Assembly (NCBI GenBank): GCA_027487315.1
Contig: JAIYDW010000107.1
Location: forward strand, 1-64,000
Source: Verrucomicrobiaceae bacterium
GTDB taxonomy: Bacteria > Verrucomicrobiota > Verrucomicrobiia > Verrucomicrobiales > Verrucomicrobiaceae
Direction of reading: 5' to 3'
Length of the DNA: 64,000 nucleotides
Below are positions 53,474-61,150 of the stretch, one piece after another (position 1 is the first letter of the stretch; every line of letters starts with the position of its first letter). Under the pieces are notes generated by a model. It saw only the letters and a list, made by a program, of their open reading frames with translations, was not told the origin of the DNA and did not search any database. The translations under genes were made by a program, and so were the position numbers.

Positions 53474-53854
53474 ATGATGAACCCCTCCGCCATCATCCGG
53501 CTCCTTCTCCTCTGCCTCCTGCTCGCCCCTCTCGCCTGCAACCGCGAACCCATCGAAGCCTCTTACGACGACCTCGTCTGGAAGAACGATCTCTACCTCC
53601 TCGGCGGCAACCCCTTCACCGGCACCGCCCGCGCCCTGCATCCCAACGGCAAACCCAAAGCCGAATACCCCTTCGTCGAAGGCCGCTTCCACGGCATCGT
53701 CCGCGAGTGGTGGGAAAACGGCCAGCAATCCGTCGAAACCCACTTCGAAAACGGCCAACGCCACGGCAGCAACCGCTACTGGAACCCCGAAGGCAAACTC
53801 ACCAAAGAACAAATCTACGACCACGACAAGTCCATCAGCGAGAAGCACTATTAG
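53474..53854 (+). CDS. MORN-repeat (YwqK-like) lipoprotein
   Basis: Predicted lipoprotein of 126 aa: leader MMNPSAIIRLLLLCLLLAPLAC with lipobox (LAC). The body contains MORN-type repeats (GTARALHPNGKPKAEYPF, GIVREWWENGQQSVETHF, GSNRYWNPEGKLTKEQIY) of the kind named YwqK or antitoxin-like in databases. Ends YDHDKSISEKHY. The last 100-120 bases of this gene reappear in damaged form twice downstream (54676-54735, 55233-55348), which marks this locus as recombinationally active. There is no toxin gene beside it. Confidence 0.82.
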   Translation: MMNPSAIIRLLLLCLLLAPLACNREPIEASYDDLVWKNDLYLLGGNPFTGTARALHPNGKPKAEYPFVEGRFHGIVREWWENGQQSVETHFENGQRHGSNRYWNPEGKLTKEQIYDHDKSISEKHY

Positions 53855-53902
53855 ACCGGTTCTCGAAAAGAGTGTCATTGGGATCCGGCGAGCGCTGCGG
53901 TC
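53854..53902 (+). repeat. Spacer direct repeat, copy A
   Basis: Starts GACCGGTTCTCGAAAAGAGT, right at the MORN gene stop, and continues to ..GCGGTCTC. Copy B at 56797-56845 matches with five substitutions over about 49 bases. A weaker relative is at 54613-54654. The two strong copies bracket a 2.9-kb accessory patch. Confidence 0.75.
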
Positions 53903-54074
53903 TCAATGAGCGGCTAACGCAACCTGCCAGGCACTTTTACTCGCCAGCGGAGGATTTTCGAGCATTCTCCATTGGCTGGCAGTTGGCCTGCACGCCGTCC
54001 TCACGCCTTTGCCGGCATGCTCGTGCAGGACCAAAACAACAACTGAACGACTTCGTTTCATCCCTCTCCGAATC

Positions 54075-54590
54075 ATGGGCATCCAGGAAAAAGTAAAACA
54101 CGAACTCAAGGCGGTAATCTTGGTGACACTGTTCTTCGCCGCATGGCTGGGAGTCCTGACGGGCCTCAAGGTGCTCATTCTTGAGGACTATCAGATTCGT
54201 TTCGGCAGTATCTCAGCGGTGCTGATCGGCGCGTTGATCCTCGCGAAGGTCGTACTGATCTTGGAACACGTTTCGCTGGGCGGGTGGCTTCGGAAGCAAC
54301 CCGTTTTGGTCGACGTGATCCTGCGCACCCTCCTCTATGCGCTCGGAACATTGGTGGTCCTTTTGTTGGAAAAGGCTTTCGAATCGCGGCATGAGCGTGG
54401 CGGAGTTGGCCCCGCCCTCATGAAAGTTTTCCAACACCGTGACATCCCGCACATTTGGGCGAACACCATTTGCGTGACGGGAGCCTTGCTTTTCTACAAC
54501 CTGCTCTCCGCACTCAACCGCTACCTCGGAACGGGCGGGCTGGCCCGCGTTTTCCTAAACCCTCAAAAAGAAGATGCGCGCATCGACTAA
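54075..54590 (+). CDS. Integral membrane protein of unknown function
   Basis: Hypothetical protein of 171 aa with about four hydrophobic helices: AVILVTLFFAAWLGVLTGL, SISAVLIGALILAKVVLIL, VILRTLLYALGTLVVLLLE and ITVTGALLFY-like ICVTGALLFYNLL. It is opened by the ATG at 54075 (MGIQEKVKHELKAV). Function cannot be named. It lies in the accessory patch between the MORN gene and a damaged MORN copy. Its codon choice has more G- and T-ending codons than the conserved genes just upstream, which fits with acquisition. Confidence 0.72.
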   Translation: MGIQEKVKHELKAVILVTLFFAAWLGVLTGLKVLILEDYQIRFGSISAVLIGALILAKVVLILEHVSLGGWLRKQPVLVDVILRTLLYALGTLVVLLLEKAFESRHERGGVGPALMKVFQHRDIPHIWANTICVTGALLFYNLLSALNRYLGTGGLARVFLNPQKEDARID

Positions 54591-54675
54591 AACCAGCCCT
54601 CCTAGCCAGCGAGACCGCTTCCCGAAAAAATGGCCCTTTTGATCAAGCGGCTCCATTCGCAAGGAAGATTTCAAA

Positions 54676-54735
54676 AGCAAACGCATCAAAGAACAATTCT
54701 ACGACCACGACAAATCCATCAGCGAGAAGCACAAT
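54676..54735 (+). pseudogene. Degraded 3' end of MORN lipoprotein gene, copy 2
   Basis: The segment GCAAACGCATCAAAGAACAA and onwards to CCATCAGCGAGAAGCAC strongly resembles the last ~55 bases of the MORN gene (positions 53797-53850 region), including TCTACGACCACGACAAATCC. The stop is lost and no complete reading frame exists. It lies about 0.9 kb after the intact gene. Confidence 0.8.
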
Positions 54736-54763
54736 CAAAAAAGTTGCCCTATATTTTTGTTCC

Positions 54764-55183
54764 ATGAGCACACCGAACGACGAACTCCAGTATCCTATTG
54801 CCGTCAGTCTTTATGACAGCGAGATTGACCGTCTGTACACCCGCCAGAGTCTCTATGTTGGTTTTCAGCTTGCCGCCATAGCTGGGTTTATCGCTTCTCT
54901 GGACAAGCTCACCGCACAACCCGTCGTCATGCGCATTGCCATCGGTTTGATGATCGTTCTGGCCATCATCACCACACTGGTGACCCTCCGCGGGCTGCAT
55001 TCTCACCAAACGCTGCTCAAGGTCATCGCCACTTTGGAGGCCCGTTCAGGTGGACGGCTCGACTTGCTGAATCTCGGTCGATTGCATTCACGAACGCCCA
55101 TTCACCTCAATTATTATTACGCCATGACCATGAACCTTGCTCTTGTTGCTACTTGGGTTTTGCTGCTAGTCACCCAAAGCTGA
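54764..55183 (+). CDS. Small membrane protein of unknown function
   Basis: Protein of 139 aa with three hydrophobic helices: FQLAAIAGFIASL, IAIGLMIVLAIITTLVTL and LNYYYAMTMNLALVATWVLLLV. It starts with the ATG at 54764 just after a degraded MORN fragment. The N-terminus (MSTPNDELQYPIAVSLYDSEIDRLYTRQ) is soluble and acidic. No homologue is recognised. It is sandwiched between two damaged MORN-gene 3' ends. Confidence 0.68.
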   Translation: MSTPNDELQYPIAVSLYDSEIDRLYTRQSLYVGFQLAAIAGFIASLDKLTAQPVVMRIAIGLMIVLAIITTLVTLRGLHSHQTLLKVIATLEARSGGRLDLLNLGRLHSRTPIHLNYYYAMTMNLALVATWVLLLVTQS

Positions 55184-55232
55184 TTTTGCGTTTCGATGGG
55201 TTAAACGAGCGGCTTCTCATTGCATCGTCAAT

Positions 55233-55348
55233 GAGTGGTAGGGAAACGGCCAGCGCCACGGCAACAAACACTACCATAACCTGAAGGCAAACTCACCAGA
55301 AAACAAGTCTACGACCACGACAGATCCATCAGTGAAAAGCACCAGTAA
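55233..55348 (+). pseudogene. Degraded 3' end of MORN lipoprotein gene, copy 3
   Basis: Read from GAGTGGTAGGGAAACGGCCA to AAAGCACCAGTAA, this resembles the last ~145 bases of the MORN gene (from GAGTGGTGGGAAAACGGCCA at 53706), but about 45 bases corresponding to part of one MORN repeat are missing and point changes abolish the frame. It retains AAGTCTACGACCACGACAGA and the stop-like end. Confidence 0.8.
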
Positions 55349-55428
55349 GCCCCTAAAGTCATAACCAATGAACAAAGGAACTTGTGGCGCGGGAAACAAG
55401 AGGTGAGTGATGGCGGCAACTCCGAGCC

Positions 55429-56772
55429 ATGAAACGCACCCTCTCTCTGCTGCTTGCCACAGTCACCCTGACCTGCGCTCAAGACCGCGCTGCATTGGAA
55501 GAGCAACTCCGTTCTGCCATCCAAGAACAAAATGGCGCGCTTGATGAAATGCGCTGTCTTAGTGGTGGCGTGCAGGACAACCCCCTGGAAACCAGGGAGG
55601 AGCATCTTTAACACGCTCATTTTCGCAACGGTCTGGAGGTCGTCACGGAGGTGCATCGTGAAGATGGTGCCTTCTCGCAAAAAACCTACCACATCAAGGA
55701 TGGGAACGTTTTTGCCATGCTCTTGGAAGCAAGGCAGCCTTGCCCCGATCCCGCCCAACATCGTGTCACTTTCACCGGTTACGGTTTCCACCAAGGCAGG
55801 CTCGTTTCCTGGAGTGTCAGTTCTCTTCGAATCGGTGCCGACGCTGAGCCCGACGAAAAACTTTTGGCCGAAGGTGAGCATGACCTTCCCATTCCACCTG
55901 GATTCGACGCGATGCAGAAATCCCTCAGTCGCCGGGCCTTCGACATCGCCCGGAACTTGCATCCGGCAGTGGCTGGCCACAGCTTGGCGGACTTCGTCGA
56001 CGTTGGGCCACCGGGTGAAAAGCCCTTCGTAGCCACCACAGATTGGATGCCGGGTCCAGAGACGTTGACGATTCCGATCCGTGTCTGGGACTTCGATTCC
56101 CCTGAATTATTGAGCTCGGATGGGCGTTTAGGGATTTCTTGGGGCTATGCAAAAGGCCCCGTGGACTGGTCCAATTTAAAGAATCCCGAAGACACCTCCG
56201 TCGGCTTCTCAGCCATTCACAATGAGAGCCGCCTGACGGACGCCCAAAATGATTATGACACATTCCTTCGCAATGTCGCCACCGGAGAAATTCTCGGCGC
56301 TCTGAAAGTCGGCCATCGCGGGAATTGCGCACGCTACAATCATCGTGAAATCGTTCCCTATTGGTCCCCTTCCCAAAAGGTGATCATCGTGCGGGAGACA
56401 GATCGCAACTGGGATGAAACAGTCCGCATCTGCTGGCTCAACGAGCAGAGTCAGATCAGCATCAATCAGGATCTCCTTGGCCCGCTGGGAGATGCCGTTC
56501 TCGCCAAGGTCCACAAATCCAAGCACCCTGCCGCAGAAAACGCAGTGAATCAGGAAAACCTCCCCATCGCCATACGCGGAGTCGACATCGACGATGACGG
56601 TACCTTCCAAGCCAAAGTCACAGGCGACAACACCCGCCAAAATCCCCACTGGGGACCTTCCGATTTCTTTGAAGCCGTGGTGAGTGGCAAAATCACCGCC
56701 GCAAAGTCAGGTCCGTCTGCCAACGTCATGGTGGAAAGCATCCAACTAGCTCCCCCGGTGGAAGCACCGTGA
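55429..56772 (+). pseudogene. Exported protein gene interrupted by an in-frame stop
   Basis: The frame starts MKRTLSLLLATVTLTCAQ (signal peptide) and runs to a TAA at 55609-55611, then continues in the same frame as HAHFRNGLEVVTEVHREDGAF and further to a TGA at 56770-56772. Residues after the stop read as a normal protein (PIRVWDFDSPELLSSD, HRGNCARYNHREIVPYWSPSQ), so a nonsense mutation or sequencing error in a roughly 447-aa secreted gene is the simplest explanation. Alternatively, translation may restart at 55651. No family is recognised. It is in the accessory patch. Confidence 0.6.
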
Positions 56773-57188
56773 GGTGTGGGAAGAAATGAGCGACTTGACC
56801 GGTTCTCGAAAAGATTGTCATTTTGATCCGGCGAGCGCAGCGGCCTCGGTGGCAAGGAAGTCGCGCAGCCCGCTATTCAATCAATAGCGGGCAAGCGGCC
56901 GACGCCGCCAATGAGGCCGCTCCGCCGCTGGGCAAGGTGACAAGCGTTTCGAGAGTCGGTCTAAGTTGACCTCAATATCATCCGCGCAGTTGGAGAAGTC
57001 GGGTATCATACCTATGGCGTAGGACTTTCGTCGGAGGGCAGGGGCTTCGAGAACCCAAACACCGTTCGTCCACGAATCCTCAGCTCCGTTATCGACACAG
57101 AGGTTGCGGGCTCTGATCCTATCGAGAGCACCGAAGCCGTCAGGGCTAACCCACTTGCCCTCTGACCCTTTTGGCCTACTCGTCTCAC
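56773..57188. other. 416-bp non-coding stretch with hairpins and repeat copy B
   Basis: No convincing gene. It contains the direct-repeat copy B (56797-56845), a perfect hairpin GCCCGCTATT / AATAGCGGGC (56868-56877 with 56883-56892), and a second hairpin of AGCGGCC with GGCCGCT at about 56894-56920. After this there is only ordinary sequence up to the threonine dehydratase-like gene. Confidence 0.65.
56797..56845 (+). repeat. Spacer direct repeat, copy B
   Basis: Starts GACCGGTTCTCGAAAAGATT and ends ..GCGGCCTC; five substitutions from copy A at 53854-53902. Two short GC-rich hairpins follow at once (56868-56892 and 56894-56920). Confidence 0.75.
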
Positions 57189-58154
57189 ATGGACAGTCTG
57201 CCAACCCTTAGCCAAATCGAATCGGCAAAGGCACTCATCCGTCCCTTGATCCGTGAGACCCCCACCTATCGCTGGCCTTTGCTCGAGGCGGGATTCGGTT
57301 GCGAATTGTGGATTAAACACGAAAACCATACCCCCGTCGGCGCCTTCAAGATTCGGGGCGGTCTTGTCTACATGCATGAATTGACGCGCCAGCAGCCTGA
57401 CGTCTCTGGAGTCATCGCCGCCACGACAGGCAATCACGGCCAGTCCATCGCCTTCGCGGCCAAAGCCCATAGTCTCCGCGCGGTCATTGTCGTACCGCAC
57501 GGCAACAATCCCGAAAAAAACCGCGCCATGCGCTCCCTCGGAGCGGAGTTGATTGAGCACGGCCGGGAGTTTCAAGACGCCCTGGAGTTCTCCCGGGAAC
57601 TCGCTGCTCAAGAAGGTCTTCACGCGGTTCCCTCGTTCCACCCCTGGCTCGTACGCGGTGTCGCGACCTACGGGATGGAGCTTTTTCGATCCGTGGCCGA
57701 TATTGATGCAGTCTTCGTTCCCATTGGCCTGGGCTCAGGCTTCTGCGGCGTCGTAGCCGCGCGCGAGGCCCTCGGTCTGAAAACAAAAATCATCGGCCTG
57801 GTGTCCGAACACGCGCCAGCCTACGCCCTGTCCTTTCAGCAACGTCATCCAATCGAGCAACCCAGCACCACCAAAATCGCGGAAGGCGTTGCCTGCAAAA
57901 CACCGAACCCCGAGGCGCTGGCTCAAGTGATATCCAATGCCCATGAAATCGTCACCGTGAATGATAACGAAGCCCTGCTAGCCATGCGCGAAATCCTCCA
58001 GGCAACCCACAATGTCGCCGAAGGCGCCGGCGCACTGGCTTATGCAGCACTTAAAAAGCAACGAGCTCAGTGGCAGAACCATCGAGTCGCCTGCGTGCTC
58101 ACCGGTGGAAACGCCAGCCTTGAGATCCTACAGCACGCCCTCTCCGCCGCATAG
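57189..58154 (+). CDS. Threonine/serine dehydratase-like PLP enzyme
   Basis: Fold-type II PLP enzyme of 321 aa, like the catalytic part of threonine dehydratase and catabolic serine/threonine dehydratases. The Schiff-base lysine lies in VGAFKIRGG, the phosphate-binding loop in GLGSGFCGV, NHGQSIAFAA near residue 85, and the C-terminal TGGNASLE. It lacks the C-terminal ACT domain of the biosynthetic IlvA, so allosteric isoleucine control is not expected. The start at 57189 (MDSLPTLSQIESAK) is used. It probably makes 2-oxobutyrate and ammonia; some close relatives are diaminopropionate or hydroxyaspartate lyases. Confidence 0.86.
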   Translation: MDSLPTLSQIESAKALIRPLIRETPTYRWPLLEAGFGCELWIKHENHTPVGAFKIRGGLVYMHELTRQQPDVSGVIAATTGNHGQSIAFAAKAHSLRAVIVVPHGNNPEKNRAMRSLGAELIEHGREFQDALEFSRELAAQEGLHAVPSFHPWLVRGVATYGMELFRSVADIDAVFVPIGLGSGFCGVVAAREALGLKTKIIGLVSEHAPAYALSFQQRHPIEQPSTTKIAEGVACKTPNPEALAQVISNAHEIVTVNDNEALLAMREILQATHNVAEGAGALAYAALKKQRAQWQNHRVACVLTGGNASLEILQHALSAA

Positions 58155-58399
58155 ATTGTTTTTCACCAACCATGTCTGAAAGGACCGGCGAATGCGGCGG
58201 CTTCATAGGCTGGCAAAGAGCTAGCCGGCAATAAACACACTGGATGAAGAGCAACAGCTCGTCTTCACGTGCAAAGCCCGCAAACTCAACTCAACATTGC
58301 CGCACAGCAAACCTGCAACAGCCCAAAGCGCCTGCCCCAACAAAAACAATTTCTTAGCAGACTTGACGAAAACCACGGCACCCTGCAAAAAAGCGGCGC
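58155..58399. other. Gap before hscC-like gene
   Basis: 245 bp without a gene. Includes a faint relative of the spacer repeat (AAAGGACCGGCGAATGCGGC near 58178) and small imperfect palindromes such as GCTAGCCGGC. No clear promoter elements were found by eye. Confidence 0.4.
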
Positions 58400-60079
58400 A
58401 TGATTGGAATCGATCTTGGAACAACTAACAGCCTCGTGTCCGTCTGTGACGAAAACGGGCCGCGTGTCCTCGCAAACGAGCTTGGCGAGGATTTGACGCC
58501 GTCCGTTGTCGCCGTGGCGGAGGATGGTGCGGTGCTCGTGGGACGCGCGGCAAAGGACCGTCTCATAACGAATCCGGAGGCCGGACAGGCATTCTTCAAA
58601 CGGGATATGGGCACTACTACGACCTACGCCTTCGGCGGGCGTCGGTGGTCGCCGGTGGAATGTTCTGCGGTGGTGCTGCGGGAGATGAAACGCATCGCCG
58701 AGACCCATTTGGGACGTGAAGTGGATAGCGCGGTCATAACAGTGCCCGCCTACTTTCACGACCAGCAGCGTCAGGCCACAGTGAATGCGGCGAGCATCGC
58801 TGGCTTGCGGGTGGAAAGGCTTCTAAATGAGCCGACAGCCGCAGCGCTGGCCTACGAATTCAATCGCGAGGATGATTTGAATACACTGCTCGTCTTTGAC
58901 CTCGGTGGTGGGACCTTTGACGTGACGGTGCTTGAGTGCTTTGATGGCGTTGTCGAAATAAAGGCTTCCTCGGGTGACGGACGGCTCGGCGGGGAGGATT
59001 ATACGGAGGCGCTCATTGCTTGGATGGCGAAAGAACTGGGCCATGCTGCTCCGAAAGACCAGCAGATGCGCTGGCGAAATGTGGTGGAGCATTTGAAACG
59101 CCGCTTCACCACTGAGGAGACAGTGGAAGTGCAGATCGGCGAAAAGAAGGTTCCCATCTCTCGAGCTGATTTCATCGACGCCACGAACCATATCACTATG
59201 CGTCTTTGGCCTGCGGTGCGCCGCGCCCTAAACGATGCTCAGCTCACGCTTAAGCAAATCGACGCGGTGCTGCTCGTGGGCGGTGCAAGCCGAATGCCGG
59301 CAGTGCAGGACATGGTGCGCCATGATCTCGGCACCGAGCCTCAGCGCAGCCTTGATCCAGACCGCGTCGTGGCTCTTGGTGCTGCAGTGCAGCAGGCGCT
59401 GTGCGTAGGTGGCTCTGCGGTGCGCGACATCGTCCTTACGGATGTCTGTCCGCATTCGCTCGGGGTGGAGGTTGCCAAGGCCTTGCTGCCAGGCCATTCG
59501 CAGCCTGGTTATTTCGACCCCATTCTTGATCGTAACACGACCGTGCCAGTCAGCCGCAGCCGAAATTACCGCACCTTGCATCCGCAGCAAGAACAGGTCA
59601 TTCTGAAGGTATTTCAAGGCGAGAGCCGCCTCACGAAGGAAAACCATCTCATCGGTATGATCCGTATCGACGGCCTGAAGAGCGCCCAGGACGATCCCCA
59701 AGGGGGCATGTTCGAGGTGCGCTTCACCTACGACATGAATGGCATCTTAGAGGTCGAGGTCACCATCTCCTCCAATGGCAAAAAACTCACGGAGGTCTTT
59801 GAGCAGCGTCCCGGCACCATGACCCGCGAGCAGATTGCCGAGGCCCTAAAATTGCTGGGATCGTTAAAACAGCATCCACGCGAGTCTCCCGCAAATCGGG
59901 CGCTCATTGAGCGTGCTCACCGCCTATTTACAGAACTCACCGGCCTGCTGCGTGACGCGCTCACGCAGGAACTTGATCAATTTGAAGCCGCGCTCGAATC
60001 GCAGGATCCGAAATTGATCTCCGCCGCTTCCGAGTCGCTCGATGCCTTCATGAAACCCTATTTTGCTGGCGATGACTGA
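58400..60079 (+). CDS. Hsp70-family chaperone, HscC-like
   Basis: Atypical Hsp70 of 559 aa, close to the length of E. coli HscC (556 aa) and shorter than DnaK. The ATPase domain has GIDLGTTNS (3-11), AVITVPAYFHDQQRQAT, LNEPTAAALAYEF, VFDLGGGTFDVTVLE and LLVGGASRMPAVQ; it ends in a reduced substrate-binding region lacking the DnaK lid. The next gene overlaps it by 8 bp and encodes a J-like protein, so it probably has its own co-chaperone and acts apart from DnaK. Codon usage favours G-ending codons more than the flanking genes. Confidence 0.9.
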   Translation: MIGIDLGTTNSLVSVCDENGPRVLANELGEDLTPSVVAVAEDGAVLVGRAAKDRLITNPEAGQAFFKRDMGTTTTYAFGGRRWSPVECSAVVLREMKRIAETHLGREVDSAVITVPAYFHDQQRQATVNAASIAGLRVERLLNEPTAAALAYEFNREDDLNTLLVFDLGGGTFDVTVLECFDGVVEIKASSGDGRLGGEDYTEALIAWMAKELGHAAPKDQQMRWRNVVEHLKRRFTTEETVEVQIGEKKVPISRADFIDATNHITMRLWPAVRRALNDAQLTLKQIDAVLLVGGASRMPAVQDMVRHDLGTEPQRSLDPDRVVALGAAVQQALCVGGSAVRDIVLTDVCPHSLGVEVAKALLPGHSQPGYFDPILDRNTTVPVSRSRNYRTLHPQQEQVILKVFQGESRLTKENHLIGMIRIDGLKSAQDDPQGGMFEVRFTYDMNGILEVEVTISSNGKKLTEVFEQRPGTMTREQIAEALKLLGSLKQHPRESPANRALIERAHRLFTELTGLLRDALTQELDQFEAALESQDPKLISAASESLDAFMKPYFAGDD

Positions 60080-61070
60080 CGATCACTGGAAAGTGCTCGA
60101 ACTCGATGGCAGCACCGCCACGCTAGCCGATGTGAAGCGCAGCTACGCCCGTCTGCTGAAGGTCACGCGCCCCGATCGTGACCCAGAGGGCTTCATGCGC
60201 CTCAGATCGGCTTATGAGGCAGCTCAGGCCATTTTGCGCGGGGATGCTCCGGCTTCTGTGCTGCCAGTCGGGCCTGCCCACAAAGCGGAAGGTTCGCAGC
60301 CCGCGGGGCAGGTGTCCTCGACACCAAGCATCACCACGCTGGTTAGAGACATCCCTCAGGAAGTCAATAATGCTGTCAAAGAATTGCGGAATGCCATCAC
60401 CACTCGTGTACGCCAAAAAGTCCGCCTCGCCTGGGTCACTTACGAGGAAACTGTCGAGAAGCACGACCTCAGCCGTGATAGCCGGTGGCTTGTCTTCATG
60501 GATGTTTTTCAGGGAAACGCCCAGTTACTCGCCGATGCCTGCACCGACGAGTTACTTATCGACCACCTAAAGCATGGAGAAATGCGCCTGCTCCGCCTTG
60601 TTACTGAGGTGTGGAGCAAAACGGGCGATGCAAAGCGGCTCGATGAATTCTGCGTTTCCCTCAACCGCCAGCGCGAACTGGTGAATTCCGAGACTGGAGC
60701 CATGGCACTGGCTGTTACCGCTATCGCCCTAGCCGCGTGGAATCCCGAGCAAGCCAACCGCTTTGTCCAGCGTGCCTTCCCAAAGCTGCCCATCTCCCAG
60801 CGCAGTGAACTTGCCGAACGCATAGACTACGAGTCCCTGCTTGGTCGCCTCGCTGCTCCGCTGCCCCAGCCTTTCAAGATCCCGTGGATCGAAGCTCTCC
60901 GCCTCGGCGATTCCGAGCGCCCTTGGAACGAAATGATCACCCGTGACATGGTCATCGCCGTCCTTCGCCATTGTGGCACTGACTGGCCCGGCTTCCCGGT
61001 CCTTCACGAGCGTCTCAAACCGGCGGCCTGGATGGAGTTGAAGACCTTGGCCGAGTCAATGTTGAGGTAG
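60072..61070 (+). CDS. Divergent J-domain protein paired with the Hsp70
   Basis: Protein of 332 aa. The N-terminal 70 residues resemble a J domain: helix WKVLELDGSTATLADVKRSYARLLK, then RPD (33-35) in place of the canonical HPD, then DPEGFMRLRSAYEAAQAILRG. E. coli DjlB/DjlC, the partners of HscC, show similarly deviant J domains. The rest is an alpha-helical domain without a known match, and contains EVNNAVKELRNAITTRVRQKV. The ATG at 60072 overlaps the hscC stop, indicating coupled translation. Confidence 0.8.
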   Translation: MTDDHWKVLELDGSTATLADVKRSYARLLKVTRPDRDPEGFMRLRSAYEAAQAILRGDAPASVLPVGPAHKAEGSQPAGQVSSTPSITTLVRDIPQEVNNAVKELRNAITTRVRQKVRLAWVTYEETVEKHDLSRDSRWLVFMDVFQGNAQLLADACTDELLIDHLKHGEMRLLRLVTEVWSKTGDAKRLDEFCVSLNRQRELVNSETGAMALAVTAIALAAWNPEQANRFVQRAFPKLPISQRSELAERIDYESLLGRLAAPLPQPFKIPWIEALRLGDSERPWNEMITRDMVIAVLRHCGTDWPGFPVLHERLKPAAWMELKTLAESMLR

Positions 61071-61150
61071 GCTCTAGCATCGGGTTGTAAACATAGTTGG
61101 CCGTTCTCAAGGCCCAAGCTAAGGACGTGCGCGCGCGCTTCGCCGCCAGA

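Follow-up and report, generated by a model that had tools for sequence, protein, structure and literature searches.

Serial displacement by host homologous recombination, with core fragments of variable length, has been proposed for the tips of rhs loci (PMC2935791), and homology-facilitated illegitimate recombination as well as transformation-driven merodiploids have been demonstrated in competent laboratory bacteria (PMC3784515). One report on E. coli further describes long palindromes as provoking rearrangement (PMC3315005). Here, we set against these systems a locus in a 64-kb stretch of Verrucomicrobiaceae DNA (in the following, the window), in which the 3' end of a YwqK-like MORN gene reappears twice behind the intact gene. 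A first-pass annotation of the window had taken this arrangement for a possible cassette system, whereas we favour ordinary host recombination as its origin.

Results

An ungapped segment of 68 nt at the end of the intact MORN gene (53786-53853) recurs at 54670-54737 and at 55280-55347, in each case with 85% identity to the intact gene's end. When gaps are allowed, copy 2 aligns over 62 nt at 90% identity (54674-54735; score 100, with a maximum of 34 in 200 shuffles) and copy 3 over about 100 nt at 84% (55244-55342; score 135, with a maximum of 42 in 200 shuffles). The reported reappearance of the last 60-150 bp of the gene was hence borne out, and the alignment of the three segments, which had been suggested as a check, places the similarity far above the shuffles and not in the range of a chance match. 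Since an additional piece of copy 3 at 55209-55254 (80% identical) matches nt 209-253 of the MORN gene, this copy corresponds to roughly the final 170 nt of the gene, less an internal deletion. The initial annotation was right that there are two copies and needs only a small correction, in that both end at the MORN stop codon; their starts differ (at about gene nt 313 and 205). The copy nearer to the intact gene is the less decayed one (90% vs 84%), and the sequences right after the three MORN stop codons have nothing in common. A search of the whole genome of this organism returned strong matches to the MORN 3' end (E 1e-17 or better) at this locus only. Most likely, the copies represent dead sequence without a function of their own.

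Table 1. Features of the MORN locus and its right anchor (positions within the window). Scores of the 168-bp repeat pieces are to be read against a background of at most 37 within the window.
Feature	Position	Strand	Basis or remark
Intact MORN_2 lipoprotein-like gene (YwqK-like)	53474..53854	+	Pfam MORN_2, E 2.7e-9
Left 55 bp of the 168-bp repeat	53854..53908	+	90% to the full copy over 51 bp; consensus alignment, score 86
Cargo 1, 171-aa multi-pass membrane protein, no family	54075..54590	+	no Pfam match; hydropathy
Decayed left part of the 168-bp repeat, abutting MORN copy 2	54613..54667	+	consensus alignment, score 53
MORN 3'-end copy 2	54670..54737	+	gene nt about 313-380
Cargo 2, 139-aa membrane protein of the 8xMP family	54764..55183	+	Pfam PF24838, E 1.9e-7
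MORN 3'-end copy 3	55209..55347	+	gene nt about 205-381, internal deletion
Cargo 3, gene of an exported protein, interrupted by a single in-frame TAA (55609-55611)	55429..56772	+	halves share one frame
Full-length 168-bp MITE-like hairpin repeat	56797..56964	+	about 40 copies in own genome
Right anchor, PALP-family (threonine-dehydratase-like) gene	57171..58154	+	Pfam PALP; common to both sister species

Few sites are informative, and at these the copies tend to match the state of the sister species G003 and not that of the intact MORN gene. Their divergence from G003 amounts to about 7% and 14%, and the synonymous divergence of the two species is about 0.10. Since the copies have diverged to an extent that is similar to or above this inter-species value, the events that displaced them would not be very recent. 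The initial description of the region as recently assembled can therefore be kept in part: synteny with the sister species agrees with an assembled and variable stretch, whereas the word recent has become doubtful.

As had been noted from the outset, each copy precedes an unrelated short gene, and the three cargo genes (Table 1) are also unrelated to one another. For cargo 1, no homolog was found among 67 other genomes of the family; a homolog with 73% identity lies beside a DUF1254/DUF1214 gene in an order-level relative, where the similarity at the DNA level begins exactly at the ATG of cargo 1, and the relatives found on plasmids are distant only. Cargo 2 has no homolog among the same 67 genomes, 387 other genomes of the phylum, plasmids, phages and viral contigs. 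The third gene had been described as a broken exported protein, and a single in-frame TAA indeed interrupts it, with the homology to proteins of 482-489 aa beginning a few residues past this codon; relatives with 32-34% identity occur in two genomes of the family, where they are located away from the MORN gene. In no relative was MORN seen to be directly followed by cargo 1, 2 or 3, and neither a donor nor an intermediate allele was encountered.

The MORN gene is present as a single ortholog in 63 of the 68 family genomes, which marks it as an ordinary member of the core genome rather than a mobile carrier. The intact gene is 97% identical to its ortholog in G003, and a recombinant 3' end was not seen in this comparison. 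At the codon level, the 3' end is only slightly more conserved (0.76 vs 0.67). The neighbours of MORN across the family form 13 clusters at 34 loci on the downstream side and 10 clusters at 33 loci on the upstream side, and of 496 pairs of loci, 93 share the downstream and 76 the upstream neighbour; the downstream side is about as variable as the upstream side, with no clear sign of a family hotspot. A toxin gene of the YwqJ/YwqK type is absent beside MORN, which is flanked by a glycosyltransferase gene upstream and by genes of membrane proteins downstream, and there was no PADLOC hit. An HSP70 gene directly behind MORN at another locus (L087) was considered as a counterpart of the window's HSP70 gene at 58400 and was dropped, as the two are only 37% identical.

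The 168-bp repeat listed in Table 1 was overlooked in the first reading. Its three pieces are the only ones that stand out in the 64-kb window, and all of them lie inside the block of cargo genes and MORN copies. The repeat folds as one long hairpin (z -10), is without coding capacity, carries TA on both sides in most of the 30 copies examined and is abundant in the genomes G000, G001 and G003. Judged by its sequence, it looks like a MITE that targets TA, as it is short, non-coding and present in many copies, with terminal inverted repeats and a target duplication. The left 55-bp piece starts with the TA that belongs to the MORN stop codon; in G003, a piece of the repeat is found within about 100 bp of the MORN stop. 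A further remnant was suspected between cargo 2 and copy 3 and was not significant.

Between 45001 and the MORN stop codon, the window is colinear with G003 at about 97% identity, apart from gaps. Beyond that point the two differ, with a piece of the 168-bp repeat, a prepilin-like ORF, an acyltransferase gene and a sigma-factor-like gene behind the MORN gene of G003. On a separate contig of G003, the PALP-family gene is directly followed by a thioredoxin-like and a sulfatase gene. The same arrangement is found in the second sister species, G001, which carries the same acyltransferase (97%) upstream of the PALP gene; the contig of G001 ends inside the upstream gene, so that the MORN status of this species is not readable from it. 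Since MORN is followed by the acyltransferase in G003 and the acyltransferase precedes PALP in G001, the genes probably stood ancestrally in the order MORN - acyltransferase - PALP - thioredoxin-like - sulfatase. In G001 (L111, 10792-14772), the acyltransferase is separated from the PALP gene by an IS200-like (RAYT-type) transposase and has a group II intron reverse transcriptase at its opposite side. From 57127 on, the window is again similar to both sister species (88-92% DNA identity). The interval between MORN and PALP hence contains different genes in each of the three species, together with pieces of MITE, RAYT or group II intron, and in the window it is occupied by cargo 1 to 3 and the MORN copies.

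Two side observations concern the right anchor. An insertion at 58155-61149, bounded precisely by the stop codon of the PALP gene on one side and that of the thioredoxin-like gene on the other, holds a gene pair for an HSP70 (HscC-like) and a J-like protein; in both sister species, unlike in the window, the PALP and thioredoxin-like genes lie side by side. The PALP gene itself (57127-58134) is 92% identical to that of G003 with a dS of 0.26, compared with 97% and a dS of about 0.10 for its neighbours, suggesting that it is an imported allele.

Discussion

From our point of view, it is fairly probable that the stretch between the MORN and PALP anchors represents a variable interval in one Verrucomicrobiaceae genus and that ordinary recombination by the host filled it in this genome, in two or more rounds. 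In each round, incoming DNA consisting of a MORN 3' end and a different downstream gene would pair with the resident MORN gene and, by one-sided homologous recombination or the single crossover of a circle, place its own gene directly behind the intact MORN gene, while the old 3' end would be pushed downstream together with the old neighbour. If this took place twice, cargo 3 would have arrived first, followed by cargo 2 and then by cargo 1. Displacement by host recombination within the shared MORN 3' end would be expected to keep the gene end and the old neighbour, to produce varying starts and to leave the nearer copy fresher, as is observed, and we also count in its favour that the farthest cargo gene, cargo 3, is the broken one. 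Equally suited would be a join with homology on one side and an illegitimate end on the other (compare PMC3784515). The order of events is read from two fragments, since the copies are present in one genome only. Judging from the position of the repeat pieces at the junctions, breaks in the long hairpin MITE beside MORN probably supplied some of the illegitimate ends. One could speculate further that incoming DNA preferentially lands at the MORN 3' end in this genus, where breaks in the adjacent hairpin MITE drive a repeated, recombinase-free capture of single foreign genes behind MORN, but we regard this bolder version as quite unlikely.

The first-pass annotation had instead envisaged an undescribed cassette system based on the MORN gene, i.e., a site-specific system with the MORN 3' end as insertion site. 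It is in line with such a system that the junctions in the window, at both copies and in the sister species G003 all fall at the MORN stop codon. However, such a system should also show copies with a shared start, a recombinase or a folded site, and none of these was found: the copies begin at different gene positions, the MORN 3' end does not fold beyond shuffles (z 1.2, -0.3 and 0.5), there is neither an integrase nor a transposase among the ORFs of the block, and the eight PF00589 genes of the genome all reside off this contig. Integrases were also not found near the MORN genes of relatives, in a search that was weak since several query sequences were in wrong frames. Other genomes in which the same MORN 3' end is repeated had been proposed as a further check, yet none of the 34 other MORN loci, including that of the closest relative, repeats its own 3' end, and the downstream side of MORN is not clearly more variable across the family than the upstream side. 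We therefore consider a site-specific system very unlikely and, as no relative repeats the pattern, see in the locus the local scar of ordinary DNA exchange.

More weight has to be given to a tandem duplication with subsequent decay, in which MORN was duplicated in place, foreign genes later came to lie between the copies and the 5' parts of the surplus copies disappeared. Tandem duplications are frequent in bacteria (PMC3784515), and the copies are indeed decayed, close together and in the same orientation. However, MORN is a single-copy gene in all 63 family genomes that possess it, no 5' part of a second copy remains and, since the sequences after the stop codons share nothing, every insertion would have to have occurred at a stop codon; as such, we hold this explanation to be possible, albeit rather unlikely. 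It would be still less probable that recombination or transposition between the 168-bp hairpin repeats carried the cargo in. Within the 64 kb, pieces of the repeat are confined to three places, on either side of cargo 1 and to the right of cargo 3, but only one of them is of full length. The remaining two both represent the left portion of the repeat with the same orientation, which leaves no bounding pair of intact ends; by itself, this scenario also does not explain the MORN copies. Lastly, the genomes compared are draft assemblies in hundreds of contigs, with 256 contigs for the genome under study, and the breaks lie near a dispersed repeat, as would fit an assembly artefact or a chimeric contig. 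A misjoin by the assembler is hardly to be expected, though, given the divergence of the MORN copies (84-90%) and a left-junction MITE piece that is both short and diverged, and the assemblies of two other species likewise imply that the two anchors are neighbours. We thus regard an artefact as extremely improbable.

If serial displacement by host recombination is the correct explanation, the locus provides a small and clean example of a conserved gene that serves as homology anchor for gene gain, with no dedicated system and with a likely order of events that can still be read. Above all, it illustrates for now that a conspicuous pattern of repeats is not in itself the sign of a cassette system. 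Should more such loci be found at hairpin repeats, they would link MITEs to gene capture in Verrucomicrobiota.

Overall, the locus is relatively ordinary, a small, good example of a type of event that is already known, as a comparison with described systems makes clear. As in rhs loci (PMC2935791), a conserved gene end has been copied downstream in variable length with different DNA after each copy, and, as for the displaced fragments of rhs/CDI loci, which start with conserved core of variable length, the starts of the two copies differ (about nt 313 and nt 205). The initial impression that the region recalls rhs, CDI or polymorphic-toxin sites is hence right in so far as displaced ends are the best-fitting analogy. 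It does not extend to the cargo: the variable part of rhs genes is the C-terminus of the protein itself, whereas here the MORN protein is unchanged and the cargo consists of separate genes and not of C-terminal tips. In addition, rhs arrays recur in many strains, unlike the present one, which occurs in one genome only and in none of the 34 other MORN loci. Of the hallmarks of integron-like arrays, neither a recombinase beside the array (among the block ORFs) nor a folded or fixed boundary site (in the fold test) was found.

The 168-bp hairpin resembles bacterial MITEs and palindromic repeats (PMC3733652) in being non-coding, in having TA at both ends and in its about 40 dispersed copies; it was matched to no named family and is MITE-like by its own sequence only. 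Homology-facilitated illegitimate recombination (PMC3784515) shares with our locus the homology on one side, the illegitimate or repeat-associated join on the other and the partial duplicates left behind, although those cases were observed in competent laboratory bacteria and the present event is inferred from a genome sequence. The locus is also like regions of genomic plasticity between anchors, with a gene content that differs in three species and with remnants of mobile elements, but unlike in the usual regions of this kind, its scars include copies of the 3' end of one of the anchors.
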